This document shows positions 2,103-22,860 of a stretch of DNA of 25,992 nt, piece after piece. Location of the stretch: IMG/VR virus record IMGVR_UViG_3300041964_000173, positions 1-25,992 of that record. One strand, 5' to 3'. A program made the position numbers and the translations under genes. The stretch comes from a virus. Position 1 is the stretch's first letter. Every line of letters begins with the position of its first letter. Under the pieces are notes generated by a model. The model saw only the letters and a program-made list of their open reading frames with translations, was not told where the DNA came from and searched no databases.

Positions 2103-3719
2103 ATGGAGAGCAAGCTGATGGCCGGAGCGCCGATCCCCGAGACGGCCGCAACGGCCGGTGCAGCGAGGGAAGTCCCGGCCGCCATCGACCAGCCCAGCGC
2201 CGGCTATGCGCGCTACGTCCTGACGCTGCTGGTCATCGTCTACGTCCTGAACTTCATCGACCGTCAGATCATCTCGATCCTTGCCGAGGACATCAAGCGC
2301 GACCTAGGTCTCACAGACGCCGATCTCGGCTTCCTCTACGGCACTGCGTTCGGCGTCTTCTACGCATTGTTCGGCATCCCGCTCGGCCGCCTCGCCGACA
2401 ATTGGAACCGCGTGAAGCTGATGTCGATCGGCCTAGCCGTCTGGTCGGCCGCGACCGCGGTGTCCGCCTTTGCCAGGACCGGGGGCATGCTCGCCGGTGC
2501 CCGCATCGGCGTGGGCGTTGGCGAGGCCACCGCCAGCCCCTGCGCTTACTCGCTCATTTCGGATTACTTCCCGAAGGAGAAGCGCGCGACCGCGCTCGCG
2601 ATCTACTCGTCCGGTCTGTACATCGGCGGCGGGCTGTCGCTCTTCATCGGCGGCCTCATCGTGCAGCAGTGGAACGCGGCCTATCCCGGCGGCGGTCCGC
2701 TGGGGCTGGTCGGCTGGCAGGCCGCTTTCCTGGCGGTCGGCATTGCCGGCCTGCTGCTTGCCTCTGGTCGCCACACTTTGCGCGAGCCGCTCCGCGGCCA
2801 AGCCGACGGCCTATCACCCCGCCGTCGCGCCCGTTCCGCGGCTTCTTCGAGAACTGCTGACCGTCATTCCGCCGCTGACCTGATCGGGCCGCCCGCGGGG
2901 TGGCGGGCCTGGCGATCAACTGCCCGCCGCGCCATTGCCGTGGTCCATATCCTGGTCACCAACACTGGCGGGCTGGTCGAGCACGACGGCCCGCAATCAG
3001 TGGGTGGCCGTTGGTATCGGCGTCTACGCTGTTTTCTCTTGGGCGACGGCGTTGCGGCGCCGTGATCCGGCGGCCTTCACTCTGATCTGGGGAACGCCTG
3101 CCTTCGTTTGCGCGGTGGTCGGCTACGGCCTGATCGCCTTCCTCGCCTACCCAACCAGCTTCTTCTCGGTGCCCTATGCCGAGCGCCTGCTGGGCGTTGG
3201 CAAGGCCGAGGCGGGCTGATCCTGGGGCGATCGGCGCAGGCGGCGGCTTCCTCGGCGTCGTGCTCGGCGGTCGACTGGCTGACTCACTCCGCCGGGCCAA
3301 TCCGTCCGGCCGGGTGCTGGTGATGCTCGCCGGCCTGCTGCTCCCGATCGTACCGATGCTGATCGGCTTCACGACCCGCAACGAAATCCTGTTCTACACG
3401 ATGTCGCTGATCGCGCAGGTGACGTCCAGCATGGCCTTGGGTGCTGCCGCGGCGACAACCCAGGACCTGGTCATGCCCCGCATGCGCGGCGCGGCCACGG
3501 CCACCTTCTTCATCGGGACCACCCTGATCGGCCTGGCCCTTGGCCCCTACCTCGCCGGCTATCTTAGCCAGGTATTCGGCGATCTCGGCTATGGCATCAT
3601 CGCGCCTGCTCGCCGTCGTGCCGATCTCGCTGGCGGCGTTGCTCTACCTGTACCGCGCGCTGCCTGCAGCGGAAGCGAGCCGCATCGAGCGCGCCCGCGC
3701 CGCCGGCGAGGCGATCTAG
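2103..3719 (+). CDS. Spinster-family MFS transporter, frame-broken
   Basis: The first 230 codons are clean: a cytoplasmic N-tail, then YARYVLTLLVIVYVLNFIDR (TM1 with the NFIDR motif of spinster-type MFS proteins), LGRLADNWNRVKLM (MFS motif A loop) and several further hydrophobic helices. After about 2790 the frame changes several times. The helices remain readable, for example RNQWVAVGIGVYAVFSW, FVCAVVGYGLIAFLAYP, LILGAIGAGGGFLGVVLGG and ATFFIGTTLIGLALGPYLAG, to the end at ARAAGEAI. Total length of about 538 codons is reasonable for 12 helices plus extensions. It is an inner-membrane secondary transporter; the substrate is unknown. The start is ATG 2103; the in-frame ATG at 2118 is an alternative. 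Its stop overlaps the convergent superoxide dismutase stop at a CTAG. Confidence 0.85.
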
Positions 3720-4260
3720 CCGGGCCGATTGCCCAGCGGCGGATAGCGCAGCACCGCGCAGGCGATCCGGTCCCCGCTATTGCCGCTGGGATCGGTGCGG
3801 TGATCGTCGGCCTTGGCGTGGATAACGAAAGCCGCGCCGTCCGCGTCCAGCATCGGGGTCTCGCCGCGCCTGGCCCAGGCCCCGCGGACCTCGTAACGGA
3901 GGGTTCCGCGTCCGTCCGGCCCAATCGTGATGTTCGGCATGTCGCCCATATGCGCTCCGGCCGGATTCTCCCGGCCATGCTGGCGGCCCGTCGGGTTCCA
4001 ATGCGGCCCGGCGCTCGTGAAGGCAGGCGGTCGCAGCGGCCACGGCGTGGACGTGGCGCCATGCACGCCCGGCGGCAGGTTCTTCGCTCCACGTTACACG
4101 ACACGGCCGCCATGGACCTGGAAGATCTCACGGTGCCGCGGGAGCGGCCGTCGGCCCGATCCGTTCGCACGATGGCACTCACCCCGCGCCCGAGGCCCGT
4201 CACGCCCGACACGCAGCAGCCGCTACCACGCCAGGCGGCCGCACCAGACTTCAGCTTCAT
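3716..4260 (-). CDS. sodC: Cu/Zn superoxide dismutase, frame-broken
   Basis: Three minus frames assemble into a protein of about 180 aa, the size of exported bacterial SodC. Readable pieces are IFQVHGG, LPPGVHGA, HVHAV (copper-binding histidines, in a second frame), GRCDR (third frame), PAFTSAGPHWNPTGRQHG, MGDMPNITIGPDGRGTL, GAAFVIHAKADDHRTDPSGN and SGDRIACAVL. The last matches the Cu/Zn-SOD C-terminal signature GNxGxRxxC. The enzyme dismutates superoxide to O2 and H2O2, normally in the periplasm; the N-terminus after MKLKSGAAAW is too damaged to judge the signal peptide. GGAGGCGAAG directly precedes ATG 4260, which fixes the start. The gene converges on the MFS gene, and the two stops overlap by two bases within CTAG. 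Confidence 0.85.
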
Positions 4261-4316
4261 CTTCGCCTCCCTCGTTCCACGCTTGAACGTGAAGCAAGCG
4301 AAACGGTTGCGGCCGT

Positions 4317-5646
4317 TCAGGCGGCCTCGGGCGCGTGCGCCTTCGCAAGGCCGGGCTTGCCGATACCCTGCCACTCGAAGCCGGCGCGATCACCTCGTCC
4401 GGGGTGTAGACGTTGCGCAGGTCCACCAGTGCGCCGCCCGCCATCTTGGCGCGCAGCCGCTTGAGGTCGAGCGCGCGCAGCACGTCCCATTCCGGTCACC
4501 AGCACCACCGCATCGGCCCCTTCCGCGGCGGCATAGGGGCTTTCGCAAAACTCCATGCCCGGCATCATCGGCCGCGCCTGCTCGATCCCCTCGGGTCGTA
4601 GCCGCGCACCTTCACCCCCACATCCTCCAGCGCCTGGAAGATGGACACGGAGGGCGCGTCGCGCATGTCGTCGGTATTCGGCTTGAAGGTGAGGCCCAGC
4701 AAGGCCACTGTCTTGCCGCGCGGCTCGTCGCCCAGGCGACCGGATGACCTTGCGGCCCATCGCGCGCTTGCGGGCTTCGTTCACCTTGGCCACCGCTTCG
4801 ACGATGCGCAGCGGCGACTGGTGGTCCTCGGCGGTCTTCAGCAGCGCCAGCGTGTCCTTGGGGAAGCACGAGCCGCCATAGCCGGGCCCGCGTGCAGGAA
4901 TTTCGGGCCGATCCGGTTGTCGAGCCCGATCCGCGCGACACGTCCTGCACGTCCGCGCCCACGATCTCGCACAGGTCGGCGATCTCGTTGATGAAGGTGA
5001 TCTTGGTCGCGAGGAACGCATTGGCCGCATATTTGATCAGCTCGGCCGTGCGGCGCGAGGTGAACAGGATCGGCGCGCGGTTGAGGTAGAGCGGCGGTAG
5101 ATGTCGCGCATCACCTCTTCGGCCTGCGGATCCTCCGTGCCGATGACGATCCGGTCGGGCCGCTTGAAATCCTCGATCGCCGCGCCTTCGCGCAGGAATT
5201 CGGGTTGGAGCAGACCGACACTTCAAGGTCGCCCGCTCCTCGCGCAGGATCGCTCGACCTCGTCACCGGTCCCGACCGGCACAGTCGACTTGGTGACCAC
5301 GACCGCGGGCCGGTCAGCGCCCCGGCGATCTCACGCGCGGCGCCGTAGACGTAGGACAGGTCGGCATGCCCGTCGCCGCGCCGCGACGGCGTGCCGACCG
5401 CGATGAACACGGCGTCGCGCCCTCGACGCCTTCGGCGAGATCCGTCGTGAACGAGAGGCGGCCCTGGCGCACGTTGCGGGCGACGAGGTCGTCGAGCCCG
5501 GGCTCGAAGATCGGCATCACGTTGCGCTCGAGCGCGTCGATCTTGGACTTGTCCTTGTCGACGCAGATCACGTCGTGGCCAAAATCCGAGAAGCAGGCGC
5601 CGGAGACAAGGCCGACATAGCCCGTGCCGATAATCGCAATCCGCAT
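4317..5646 (-). CDS. ugd: UDP-glucose 6-dehydrogenase, frame-broken
   Basis: The protein starts [20 protein letters not shown], the NAD-binding GxGxxG Rossmann motif. [19 protein letters not shown], the central [19 protein letters not shown] helix with [10 protein letters not shown], and [13 protein letters not shown] follow. The last holds the catalytic Cys of UDP-glucose/GDP-mannose dehydrogenases. The C-terminal UDP-binding domain includes NVYTPDEVI across frames and the product ends [14 protein letters not shown]. About 443 codons match the family. It oxidises UDP-glucose to UDP-glucuronate for exopolysaccharide or lipid precursors in the cytoplasm. At least five frame changes are needed; every conserved block survives, so sequence error is more likely than decay. 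GGAG lies about 10 nt upstream of ATG 5646. Confidence 0.92.
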
Positions 5647-12698: not shown

Positions 12699-12877
12699 TT
12701 CACGCGAAGGCGCGGAGGCGCGGAGGGATCGCGCCCCGACGGAACGCGCCTCGTCCTCAACGCTATGTCAGATTGCGAGCAAAGCTCGCCTTCATCGCCC
12801 CTCGTCAGTGGGCGAAGGCAATGCGCTCCACCCGACGCACCCCTCCGCGCCTCCGCGCCTCCGCGCCTCCGCGTGAA
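12699..12877. repeat. TTCACGCGGAG-ended repeat element, copy 1
   Basis: The left end is TTCACGCGAAGGCGCGGAGG and the right end is tandem CTCCGCGC units closing with CTCCGCGTGAA, so the ends are inverted copies. A core hairpin GCGAGC-AAA-GCTCGC lies at 12775-12789, with flanks in the opposite orientation to copies 2 and 3. It fills the gap between the g9 and g10 genes. Confidence 0.8.
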
Positions 12878-18324: not shown

Positions 18325-19246
18325 CTACTTCCCGACCGCTTTCGCCTCCCGCCGCGCCCGGTCCAGCACCGCGCCTCGCGCGTCCAGCCGCGTAAGGCCG
18401 AGCTGATGGTCGCCACCGATCGCCGGTAGAAGCCGGCATCGATCCGCTCCGCATCGTCGCCCCGGCTTGTGGTAATCGGGATGATCGTCGACCCCGAAAT
18501 AGACGAATGGAATTCCCGCCTGGTGGAACGGCCCGTGATCGGACAGCAAGGTCCAATCCTCCGGCCCCGTCCCCTCCTGGTCGTGGCCCAGGCGCAGCGT
18601 CACCTTCGCGCCCCGCGCCGCCGCCTCCAGCACCGAGCGCAGCGCCGGATGGCGCCCCGTTCCCACCGCCCACAGCACGTCGTTCTTGCCGCGCGACACC
18701 ATGTCCATGTTGAAGTTGAGCAGGATCCTGTCGCCGGCACCGGCGGCGCCGCCACGAAGCCTTCGCGCCGTAAAGGCCGATTTCCTCCGCATCGAGCGCG
18801 GCAGGATCACGGTGTGCGCCGCGGCTTGGCCTTCAACTCGCGGCAATCGCCAGCAGCGCCGCCACGCCGGAGGCATTGTCGTCCGCCCCGTTGTGGATCG
18901 CCCCGTCCTTGATGCCGACATGGTCGTAATGCGCCGTCACGACGATCACCCGGTCCGGCCGCTTCCGTCCCGCACCATCGTCCACAGATTGATGCCTGCC
19001 GCGCATCGTTCTTGTGCCGATAGTCGAACGGCTGCGCACGCACCGCCAGCCCGGTCTCCCGCAGCCTTTTCTCGACATAAGCCCGCGCGCGCTCCGCCCC
19101 GGCCGTGCCGGTCCCGCGCCCTTCCATGGCATCGGCGGACAGCACGGCGACGTCCGCAGCAGCGGCCCCGCGTCCGTCCGCGGCGCGGGCTGCCCGGCCG
19201 CCAGCGCGAGCGCCGCCGCTATCGTCATCACCGCCCCGGCCATCAC
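18325..19246 (-). CDS. M28-family zinc aminopeptidase, exported, frame-broken
   Basis: Pieces in several minus frames give a signal peptide MAGAVMTIAAALALAAGQ and LSADAMEGRGTGTAGAERAR. They continue RVIVVTAHYDHVGIKDGAIH (first zinc His) and NGADDNASGVAALLAIA (bridging Asp), the M28 metal-site blocks. Then come ILLNFNMDMVSRGKNDVLWA, SDHGPFHQAGIPFVYFGVDD, HPDYHKPGD (last zinc His) and a C-terminus ending AVGK. Size of about 307 codons is usual. It removes N-terminal residues from peptides in the periplasm. The start is GTG 19246 or ATG 19243, with AAGGAGAGG upstream. Prohead protease and capsid genes normally adjoin, so this is a foreign gene within the head module. Confidence 0.82.
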
Positions 19247-19715: not shown

Positions 19716-20024
19716 CCCACCACCCGCTCGAAAAGCCCCATCTTCACCGCCATCCCCGCCACCAGCACCGCGAGCAGGATCCGCACAGCCAGGTCACCAC
19801 CGCCCGCCGCGCGCTCTTCTTCGCGTCGCGCCACGCCTGCAGCAGCTCGCGCAGCTCATCCATGTCACGCCGCGCCTGCTGCGTCCGGCCAGCCCCAGCG
19901 ACTTCAACGCCCGCTCCGCCCCCAGCTCGCTCGCTTCCTCCGCCAGCGCCCGCATCGTCACCAGCGCCGCGCCTTCCTGCCCCGCCTGCCGCATCAGCTG
20001 CGCCAGCATCGCCTCATCGCTCAT
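19712..20024 (-). CDS. DUF6127 family protein (g3.5 position), frame-broken
   Basis: The N-terminus MSDEAMLAQLMRQAGQEGAA, LVTMRALAEEASELGAERAL, KSLGLAG is helical. After frame changes it reads MDELRELLQAW and ends VAGMAVKMGLFERVVG, a probable C-terminal membrane helix. This layout is that of DUF6127, the small protein after the portal gene in sphingomonad GTA clusters. Its role is unknown. ATG 20024 overlaps the portal stop (11 nt) and its stop overlaps the protease GTG, so portal, DUF6127 and protease are translationally coupled. Confidence 0.75.
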
Positions 20025-21164
20025 CGTGTACCTCCCTGGAGAAACCGAGCATCTCGCGTTTCTCCTCATTGGTCAGGAAATCCGCCGCGCTCACCTGCGC
20101 CCACAATTCCGACCGGTCCGCATGCAGCGCGCTCACCTGGTCGACATCCACCGCCAGCCTGCAGCCCCGGCCACCAGGCCTGCAGCGCCCCGCCAACGCC
20201 ATCCAAGATCCGCCCCGCCATCGGCAGCACCGGTCAGCCGCCACAGCGACCGCACCGCCTCCCGATAATTGGCATAGGCATTGTCGCCCGGCAGCCCGAC
20301 CAGCATCGGCGGCACCCCGAAGGCCAATGCGATCTCCCGCGCCGCCGCCGCCTTCACTTCCACGAAGTCCATGTCCGCCGGCGACAGGCTCATCGCCTGC
20401 CACTTGAGCCCGCCTCGAGCAGCATCGGCCGCCCGGCATTGCCCGCGCCCTGGAACTGCGCCTCCATCTCCTCGCGCAGCCGCTCGAACTGCGCGGGCGC
20501 CAGCACCGCCCCGTCGCCGGGATCGTAGACCAGCGCCCCCGACGGCCGCGCCGCATTGTCGAGCAAGGCGCGGTTCCACCGGCTCGCCGCATTGTGCAGC
20601 GCCACCGCGCCCGCCGCCGCTCCCAGGCAGCCCAGCCCATAATGATCGTCGATCGGATGCGTCAGCCGCAGGTGCACGATGCCCGGCCGCCCCAGCGCAT
20701 CCGCCGCCGCATAAAGCCGCTCCGCCTGCCCGGCCTTGTAGCGGTAAGCCGCCGGCCACCCGCCCGCATCCGCCTCCACCTTCACCCGCTCGGGCCGCAG
20801 CGCGAACAGCCGCCCGGCCGCCCCTCCCCATCCTGCGCCACCTGCAGAAACGCATTCCCATGCAACAGCAAATGCGTCGCTACCGTCTCCAGCAACCCGG
20901 AGCCAACAAGGAAACCGCCTTGCCTGAGCTTGTCGAAGGCCTGTCCTTCTTCTCTCCCGGCGCTTCAAACAAAGTTACCGAACCCACCGCCTCCGCCACC
21001 AGCCGCACGCATCTCTGCGCCACCGCATTGGTGACATAGGCCTCCCGCACCTGCGCCTCATAGGATCGCGGCACGCTTTCGGCCCCCGCCACGCCCCACC
21101 CGCTCCGCAACAAAAAAGGCCGCTGGGGCACCTGCCCAGCGGCCTTCCGGCCAAACCATTTCAT
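20014..21164 (-). CDS. Phage portal protein (g3-like), frame-broken
   Basis: The start MKWFGRKAAGQ (ATG 21164, GGGAG upstream) runs into SYEAQVREAYVTNAVAQRCV, RLVAEAVGSVTLFEAPGE. Other frames then give GLFALRPERVKVEADAGGWP, IVHLRLTHPIDDHYGLGCLG, AASRWNRALLDNAARPSGAL, GLKWQAMSLSPADMDFVEVK, EIALAFGVPPMLVGLPGDNA, YANYREAVRSLW and finally TNEEKREMLGF. These are standard blocks of HK97-like portals, the 12-mer ring through which DNA enters the head. About 383 codons is normal. Residues around RPSTSSGKA come from a palindromic repeat. The gene is separated from the terminase gene by repeat copy 4. Confidence 0.9.
20923..20939. repeat. CCTTCGACAAGCTCAGG-type repeat inside the portal gene
   Basis: The minus strand reads CCTTCGACAAGCTCAGG, a sequence dispersed in sphingomonad genomes. 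It is translated here as RPSTSSG in an otherwise family-like portal region. Confidence 0.55.
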
Positions 21165-21198
21165 CTCGAACTCCCGTATCTGTGGCGGGTAGAAGAAT

Positions 21199-21450
21199 TT
21201 CACGCGGAGGCGCGGAGGAAGAAAATGAGGCGCGGAGAAATCGTGATGCTAGAGCCCGGCCGACTACGCTGTCACCGGGCTCAGAAGAGGCGCTATGCGC
21301 CGAAGGCGCAATCACTCCTTCTTCTCCTCCGCGTCTCCCCTTCTTCTCCGCGCCTCCGCGTGAAGCACTCTTCCTTCTTCTCCGCGCCTCCGCGCCTCCG
21401 CGCCTCCGCGTGAACCATTCTTCCTTCGCGCCTTTGCGCCTTCGCGTGAG
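21199..21450. repeat. TTCACGCGGAG-ended repeat element, copy 4
   Basis: The left end is TTCACGCGGAGGCGCGGAG. Right-type ends occur at 21364 and 21414 (GCGCCTCCGCGTGAA). A third variant end, TTCGCGTGAG, follows a CGCGCCTTTGCGCC unit and ends 4 bp before the terminase stop. The core hairpin differs (GGCGC-TAT-GCGCC) but is again followed by GCGCAATCA. It lies between terminase and portal genes. Confidence 0.8.
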
Positions 21451-21453
21451 ACC

Positions 21454-22860
21454 CTAAAGCGCCCGTACCGCCGGCATCCCGCCTCGCCGCCCCAGCATCA
21501 GCTCGGTGAACGCCCACACCATTGCGTCCGCCCGGTCGGGCGATCGTCCCGGCCCCGCATAGGCGCCGCCGATCGCCAGCCCGCACAATTCATCCTCCAG
21601 CTCCGGAAACGCGCCGGCAAACTTCGCCCGCCCCTTCTCGAACAAAGCCGCCACCGGCTCCGCCCGCGCCGACTTGCCCCGCCGCGCATGGACCAGCTTC
21701 ACCGGCAGCGCGCAGTCCGCCGCCCGCAGCACGCTCTCCACCATCGCACCTCCTTGGTTGGCCTCCGCCACCACCCGGTCTGCGCCGTGCGCCTCCGCCG
21801 CCGCCGCCACTGCCCGCGCCCAGCCTTCCGGGCTCAGGCCCGCCACGCTGTGATCGCCCAGCACGTAACCCACGCCGTCCGCGCCCAGACCCACCGCCAC
21901 GATTCCGCAAGCATCGCCCCCGGCCGAGACCGGCGGATCCACCCCGATTACGACCCTCACAAGCCCCTCCCCTTCAGGGGAGGGGTTGGGGTGGGGGCTG
22001 TCCATGGGAGCACTCCCGGCGCGACACGCCCCACCCCCGGCCCCTCCCCTGAAGGGGAGGGGAGTGACCCGACACTTCTCCACCAGCTCCCGCGTCCACA
22101 ACGCACCCTCCACATCCTCGATCAGCTCGCCCTCCAGCTCCTGCCGCCCCAGCCGCGTGCCGCCATATCGCGCCTCCATCCCCGCCACGAAGGCGTCCGG
22201 CAGATGCGGATTGTGCCGCGTCGCGCCGCGTGTCGTCACCGTCTCCTTGTCGGTCATGATCGCCGTCAGGATCGGGATCGACTGCGGCGTCGTCGTCACC
22301 AGCACCCGCGGCGCATCGCCCAGCCGCATGGTCAGCAGCAAATTGGTCCAGGTATCTTCCGGCCGCTGCCATTTGGCGAGCTCGTCGCACCAGGCATAAT
22401 GATGCTCCGGCCCGCGCAACTTGGCCGGCGCCGCGCCCGTATAGACGAATGCCAATGCCCCCGACGAAAAGGTGACGGTGCGGGTCGAAGGCACCCAGAT
22501 CACATCCTCCTCGCTGCGCGCCACCGCCATCAGGCCGCTTTGTCCACGCACCATCACGTTGGCGACTTCATCGATGGTCGCGCCGACCAGCGCGAAGCGC
22601 AGCTTCCCGTTCGCGCGCGCCAGCTCGCTGATCCATTCCGCGCCCGCTCTCGTCTTGCCGAAGCCGCGCCCGGCCAGGATCAGCCACACCCGCCAATCCT
22701 TGCGCCCGGGCAGCTGCCCCTCATGCGCATGAGCGGGCCAGTGGCCGGCCAGCCGCCGCATCTGCGGCACGGTGAGCCGCCCCATCACCCACGCCTGGTC
22801 CTCGTCCTCCAGCGCGAACAGCGCCAGGATCAGGCCGGTCAGCACCTCATCCTCGCTCAT
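21454..22860 (-). CDS. Terminase large subunit (g2-like) with an in-frame repeat insertion
   Basis: A clean 468-aa frame. The ATPase domain has WLILAGRGFGKTRAGAEW (Walker A), YAWCDELAKWQRPEDTW (Walker B with the DE pair) and APRVLVTTTPQS (coupling motif III region). The nuclease domain has VIGVDPPVSAGGDACGIVAV (first catalytic Asp), VVAEANQGGAMVESVL and a late acidic cluster DRADAMVWAFTEL. It packages DNA into the prohead. Residues about 264-299, from PLPFRGGAGG to HPNPSPEGEG, lie between the two domains. They are encoded by inverted repeats and are not part of the family. ATG 22860 overlaps the g1 stop by 14 nt. Confidence 0.95.
   Translation of the reverse strand: MSEDEVLTGLILALFALEDEDQAWVMGRLTVPQMRRLAGHWPAHAHEGQLPGRKDWRVWLILAGRGFGKTRAGAEWISELARANGKLRFALVGATIDEVANVMVRGQSGLMAVARSEEDVIWVPSTRTVTFSSGALAFVYTGAAPAKLRGPEHHYAWCDELAKWQRPEDTWTNLLLTMRLGDAPRVLVTTTPQSIPILTAIMTDKETVTTRGATRHNPHLPDAFVAGMEARYGGTRLGRQELEGELIEDVEGALWTRELVEKCRVTPLPFRGGAGGGACRAGSAPMDSPHPNPSPEGEGLVRVVIGVDPPVSAGGDACGIVAVGLGADGVGYVLGDHSVAGLSPEGWARAVAAAAEAHGADRVVAEANQGGAMVESVLRAADCALPVKLVHARRGKSARAEPVAALFEKGRAKFAGAFPELEDELCGLAIGGAYAGPGRSPDRADAMVWAFTELMLGRRGGMPAVRAL
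21964..22062. repeat. Inverted pair of CCCCTCCCC hairpins inside the terminase gene
   Basis: One hairpin, CCCCTCCCC-TTCA-GGGGAGGGG, lies at 21964-21985. A near-identical one, CCCCTCCCC-TGAA-GGGGAGGGG, lies at 22041-22062. About 55 bp between them are also partly inverted (GTTGGGGTGGGGG against CCCCACCCCC). The unit keeps the terminase frame open. Confidence 0.85.

Follow-up and report, generated by a model that had tools for sequence, protein, structure and literature searches.

Recurrent palindromic repeats in frame at the interdomain linker of a GTA-type terminase in Sphingomonadales

The terminase gene and its insert

The window, that is, the whole stretch of DNA analysed here, is a 25,992-base record from a viral collection. 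On its minus strand, a single open reading frame at 21454–22860 encodes an intact terminase large subunit of 468 amino acids. Both the ATPase domain (Pfam Terminase_6N, residues 60–260; 22081–22683, minus strand) and the RNase H-like nuclease domain (Terminase_6C, residues 305–452; 21505–21948, minus strand) score above the Pfam cut-offs in this one protein, and PHROG terminase families also match. The protein shares its two domains and their Pfam families with the RcGTA-like TerL, which has homologues throughout Sphingomonadales, and it is presumably of the GTA type, a label taken from the setting of the homologues. All positions that are invariant in 42 aligned terminases are kept, including D159/E160 and the stretch GRGFGKT, which is assumed to be Walker-like. 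The claim in the original prediction that the flanks of the insert are fully conserved is nevertheless too strong, since the nearest homologues are about 70–77% identical to the window protein.

Between the two domains, the gene contains a 99-nt pair of inverted palindromes (21964–22062). The two arms of 35 nt each (21964–21998 and, inverted, 22028–22062) are 89% complementary and are separated by a loop of 29 nt (21999–22027) that differs among genomic copies. Each arm contains one near-perfect 22-nt palindrome of the form CCCCTCCCCT-TC/GA-AGGGGAGGGG, located at 21964–21985 and 22041–22062. The inserted codons (21961–22068, minus strand) are read as residues 265–300, and these 36 residues are flanked by 'CR' and 'VR'; the opposed palindromes, the approximate length of the encoded peptide and the uninterrupted 468-residue frame are all as originally proposed. 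The span from W255 to D308 amounts to 52 residues in the window and 23 in the modal homologue, a net gain of 29.

Is the insert more than a chance arrangement? The minus-strand RNA of 21958–22072 is calculated to fold with −90.7 kcal/mol (z = −6.27), and none of 200 dinucleotide shuffles is equally stable. Together, the inverted arms, the near-perfect palindromes and a fold that no shuffle matches indicate that the insert is real and beyond chance. A role as a terminator or promoter was rejected, because no terminator-like site is found in the terminase gene and the sole promoter-like match (22373–22400, plus strand) is distant from the insert. An Rfam search of the window gave no match.

The structure of the window terminase was modelled with AlphaFold2 from an alignment of the protein with 41 relatives. 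The mean pLDDT is 85.3, and residues 270–298 of the insert fall below 50. This segment follows a helix (257–262) and precedes the strand with which the nuclease domain opens (301–307). The insert is predicted to be a disordered loop that joins two well-folded domains.

Several other features of the window deserve mention. Portal homology at 19966–21176 (minus strand) is spread over at least three frames (−2, −3 and −1), while the terminase is intact; the portal gene is thus frameshifted by sequencing error or decay. A further repeat, CTCCGCGCCTCCGCGTGAA, is present in nine copies, of which two are inverted relative to the other seven; there is a cluster between terminase and portal (21199–21414), and other copies lie at 12859, 14355, 14488, 14524, 14568 and 17071. 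A major-facilitator transporter at 2103–4747 is apparently split over two frames, and a Peptidase_M28 match is found on the minus strand at 18325–18921, within the presumed GTA region.

A dispersed palindromic dimer

Judged by its sequence, the terminase insert represents a full-length F1, the name given here to a REP-like palindromic dimer that is dispersed in Sphingomonadales and has the layout AAG-CCCCTCCCCTTCAGGGGAGGGG-TTGGGGTGGGG, a variable loop, and then the inverse. The exact F1 22-mer occurs in 26 of 196 Sphingomonadales genomes (a set chosen around the L112 genome), and a single genome may have as many as 46 copies; the reversed-pattern control gave 0. Twenty genomic F1 places were fetched, and 13 of the 20 have inverted pairs, a proportion that reflects a choice in which pairs were favoured. 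Oppositely oriented pairs of this kind are common, and in those fetched the palindromes are 61–113 bases apart, compared with 77 in the window. The 13 genomic dimers share their arms with the window, with small differences, and vary in loop and length; one dimer (L191) diverges outside the palindrome. Only 5 of 14 dimers, the window included, have a length that is a multiple of three; thus, the length is not constrained to the reading frame. The dimers are GC-rich and are open in three to four of six frames. Random DNA at 69% GC averages 3.1 open frames, so this openness is due to composition, and the idea that open frames are an adaptation of F1 was rejected.

F1 is also read in frame outside the terminase. 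Frames open across the 20 genomic places were screened, ten were searched against Pfam and three were read; these three in-frame loci among the 20 are MurD in two cases (L183 and L170) and a glycine dehydrogenase subunit in one (L192), as judged from downstream Pfam hits and flanks read by eye. In L183 (1501–1595) and L170 (about 1501–1522), F1 lies at a similar place in the N-terminal region of MurD and in different frames. In L192 (1501–1583, minus strand), it is in frame close to the N-terminus of the protein. From these cases, F1 seems to behave elsewhere in the genomes as it does in the terminase.

How does F1 relate to known repeats? CGTC-tagged REPs are short dispersed palindromes, mostly arranged as inverted dimers, that are abundant in Alphaproteobacteria (Di Nocera, De Gregorio and Rocco 2013, PMC3733652). 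According to the main text of that paper, some of them lie in frame within ORFs, including cases in S. alaskensis and E. 'lithoralis', and the recB genes of two Xanthomonas species contain a REP at about the same site (PMC3733652). F1 resembles these REPs, as described there, in being dispersed and in forming inverted dimers. However, F1 does not have the unpaired CGTC (TGTC/CCTC) tag; its genomic dimers are bordered by AAG at one end of the hairpin and by TTGGGGTGGGG at the other. The stem of the tagged REPs is described as 8–9 bp, with A-T as the first two pairs and a loop of 4–5, whereas the F1 stem (CCCCTCCCCT/AGGGGAGGGG) is 10 bp and starts with C-G pairs. A GTAG tag was not found beside the F1 hairpins in the genomic dimers either. 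Lacking both tags, F1 is filed with neither REP group. The two species named above are presumably Sphingopyxis alaskensis and Erythrobacter litoralis. By contrast with F1, a repeat found in another terminase (F4, in the linker of L147) matches, on inspection by eye, the CGTC layout, CGTC-ATGCTGAA-CTTGT-TTCAGCAT-CCA, with the tag, an 8-bp stem that starts A-T, T-A, a loop of 5 and a CCA tail.

With BIME-type REP pairs, which are moved by RAYT/Y1 transposases, F1 shares the arrangement of two inverted palindromes around a variable spacer. RAYT/Y1 transposases were nevertheless rejected as movers of F1, because Y1_Tnp, scored as presence at the genome level, is equally common with and without F1 (6/26 F1-bearing and 32/170 other genomes, p = 0.60). 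Rickettsia palindromic elements, reportedly the work of Ogata, Claverie and colleagues, are the classic case of in-frame palindromic insertion, and PMC3733652 cites them too. The likeness to these elements suggested by the original prediction holds for behaviour, in that palindromes are found in frame in conserved working genes and the protein is otherwise kept; the host order is another, and the sequence is presumably different too.

In-frame REPs in ORFs, including those of Sphingomonadales, were therefore already known (PMC3733652). The main text of that paper, as distinct from its Additional file 3, which lists intragenic REPs, names no terminase or phage genes. In the part of the literature covered, no report was found of the F1 sequence or of palindromic repeats in a GTA terminase. 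What is new is the untagged F1 family and the scale of recurrence at one linker.

One linker and many repeats

Do related terminases contain similar inserts? The comparison covered 160 homologous loci, the best 80 from each of two scans, a choice that favours intact genes. Linker length was counted between the positions aligned with residues W255 and D308 of the window terminase. In this set of the best 80 + 80 loci and the window, linkers of at most 28 residues are found in 133 of 161 (the mode, 23 residues, accounts for 83 rows) and linkers of at least 29 residues in 28; most RcGTA-like terminases, unlike that of the window, thus have no insert there. Palindromic repeats of about seven families could be assigned by eye to 26 of the 28 long linkers. 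The two in which no repeat was recognised by eye, L158 and L161, have only 29 and 31 residues. This is the outcome of the check set out with the original prediction, which concerned homologues with non-repeat sequence of equal length at this site. A hairpin z below −2 is seen in 17/28 long and 9/133 short linkers (Fisher p = 9e-10). One short linker (L150) contains a perfect palindrome-like stretch, GGCAAAGTAGTACTTTGCC.

In all 160 homologues, the two anchors lie in one frame, as seen in best continuous tblastn alignments, which favour intact genes; splicing or bypassing of the insert is for this reason disfavoured. The alignments with related terminases, in which the palindromes form a clean in-frame insertion, and the structural model, in which the insert becomes a disordered loop, support the original placement at the interdomain linker, where it was thought that an insertion might be tolerated. 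What that prediction did not contain is that unlike repeats have entered this linker many times over.

The families were labelled F1–F7 by eye. In addition to the window, F1 (core CCCCTCCCCT) is found in the linkers of L023, L030, L040, L135 and L119, and it is read in three different frames, giving PLPFRGG in the window, PSLSREG in L023 and PPLQGRG in L030. F2 (core GTGTCGAGCGAAGTCGAGAC) is present in L037, L096, L111, L112 and L129, with shorter pieces in L003, L110, L121 and L157. The linkers of L083, L085, L114 and L123 contain F3 (core CTTCGACAAGCTCAGG), that of L147 contains F4 (core ATGCTGAACTTGTTTCAGCAT), and those of L005, L017, L035 and L144 contain F5 (core GGTCCCCCTCCCC). F6 (core CTCTCCCGCTTGCGGGAGAG), a loose assignment, was recognised in L008 and L136, and F7 (core GGGGACAGTTACTTTCA) in L019.

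Dispersal was checked for the cores of F1–F5. Among 15 insert-bearing host genomes, the F3 core is present in all 15 (4–51 copies), that of F4 in 14, that of F5 in 12 and that of F2 in 10, while reversed controls for F2–F5 gave 0 to 1; two short virus records have no F3 core. The F4 21-mer is single in the L147 host, and this copy, judged by its place, is probably that of the terminase itself. Is the supply of repeats what matters? Median copy numbers of the F3 core are 34 for 15 hosts with an insertion and 2 for 38 hosts without (p = 6e-6), in a comparison that is hand-chosen and confounded by kinship. It includes 38 hand-picked loci out of 64 insertion-free genome_contigs loci, and 15 of the 16 insertion-bearing ones (L157 omitted). 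There are counter-examples: the genome of L086 (G173) contains 11 copies of F1, yet its linker is short and without an insert, and the L136 host has only four F3 copies. Repeat supply in the host does not account for everything.

On a maximum-likelihood tree of 152 terminases, from which the linker was left out, the linker switches state 20 times or more, or 14 times if presence and absence alone are scored; the tree is a quick build with 42 of 149 inner branches open, and the states were labelled by hand. Four of the five nearest relatives of the window on this tree (L008, L005, L003 and L083) carry different families, and the fifth, L004, has a short linker of 28 residues. In the alignment of the same 152 terminases, 27 of 30 insertion blocks of at least eight residues fall at core columns 273–275 of 444. 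Sequence comparison thus shows that one linker has received repeats of about seven unlike families, in many separate events.

A second, lesser site of in-frame insertion was seen in the portal protein, at core columns 76–90 of an alignment of 141 rows. Seven rows have insertions there (L003, L004, L005, L008, L019, L058 and L084); nine of the 20 insertion blocks of this survey came from one apparently frameshifted row, L137, and were set aside. In the window, the F3 core CCTGAGCTTGTCGAA (20923–20937, minus strand) is in frame in the portal gene, with RPSTSSGKAV as the peptide read there, and it falls in the region of this lesser site. The portal protein of L084 ends at its C-terminus in a repeat-like peptide, IRHAELGSAS.

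How the inserts may have come to stay

The explanation put forward here, to which a probability of about 0.85 is given, is that a REP-like F1 dimer entered the terminase gene in frame, as one of many widely inserting elements that survive where the linker tolerates them. Elements of this kind would insert regardless of the reading frame, and most insertions in coding DNA would then be lost. Copies that keep the frame and lie in loops such as the terminase linker might persist almost neutrally. The terminase would thereby carry a floppy spacer whose amino acids are not themselves selected, since one family is read in three frames in different hosts.

A different possibility is that the palindrome is retained because it functions as DNA or RNA: a hairpin between the halves of the gene that encode the two domains could slow ribosomes, alter mRNA decay or mark the locus. 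The very stable fold of the insert and the numerous separate acquisitions at a single point are consistent with such a function, and the most direct evidence comes from F2. Five related terminases (L037, L096, L111, L112 and L129) have an F2 insert at an almost identical codon. In these related rows, variation affects one of only nine four-fold sites of the insert but 124 of the 194 flanking ones (p = 0.002); of 384 overlapping windows in the flanks, not one has so low a value. The amino acids, by contrast, change as much as those of the flanks or more: 12 of 26 insert residues vary, against a flank mean of 6.0 per 26, and a value of 12 is attained by 53 of the 384 flank windows. This constancy of the F2 arms at silent sites is not what neutral drift would lead one to expect, and it is a point against neutral tolerance. 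However, F2 copies elsewhere, in the same and in other genomes, also mostly keep their arms and vary in the loop, as do intergenic F1 copies. Arm constancy is thus probably a feature of the family, through recent spread, gene conversion or selection for pairing, more than of the terminase. The 133 of 161 terminases with linkers of at most 28 residues and the lack of a terminator-like site in the gene also argue against a function of this kind, which is considered unlikely. There is the same slim chance that in some clades a linker palindrome is actively kept as DNA or RNA, either by selection on the hairpin or by rewriting from genomic copies, while the peptide drifts. If so, the successive unlike families would be interchangeable hairpins at one coding site that take part in the expression or packaging of GTAs.

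Slightly less likely again is a target-site preference, in which the repeats would favour a sequence or structure in the terminase gene and tolerance alone would be insufficient to account for the hotspot. The concentration of 27 of the 30 insertion blocks at one point fits this proposal, as does the fact that several families lie only a few codons away from the CR(V) codons. On the other hand, the edges of the inserts vary by several codons from event to event, no common target is recognisable by eye, and other sites exist in the portal (the lesser one), in MurD and in the glycine dehydrogenase subunit.

It is very unlikely that the inserted peptide has a function in the protein, for example by lengthening the flexible linker or by providing a binding motif. 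Although the insertions are concentrated in the one joint that connects the motor to the nuclease, the peptides encoded by unlike families, or by one family in its different frames, are unrelated, the insert is predicted to be disordered, and the F2 amino acids are as variable as described above. That the insert is an artefact, introduced when a metagenomic contig was sequenced or assembled, is scarcely credible: the frames of the portal homology do point to indels or decay in the contig, but the terminase is a single open frame across the insert, and comparable inserts are found in many separate genomes, including those of isolates.

Tolerated insertion at the linker, the favoured reading, gives the terminase a particular interest. 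In-frame palindromic insertions are usually seen singly, gene by gene, whereas here they affect the linker of one conserved enzyme across an order, with insert-free relatives alongside. The linker also offers a practical hint as to where a terminase accepts tags. It also provides a ready-made series in which to study how proteins gain sequence from mobile DNA and whether such additions are neutral, and the same series bears on how arms can be constant at silent sites despite a changing peptide.
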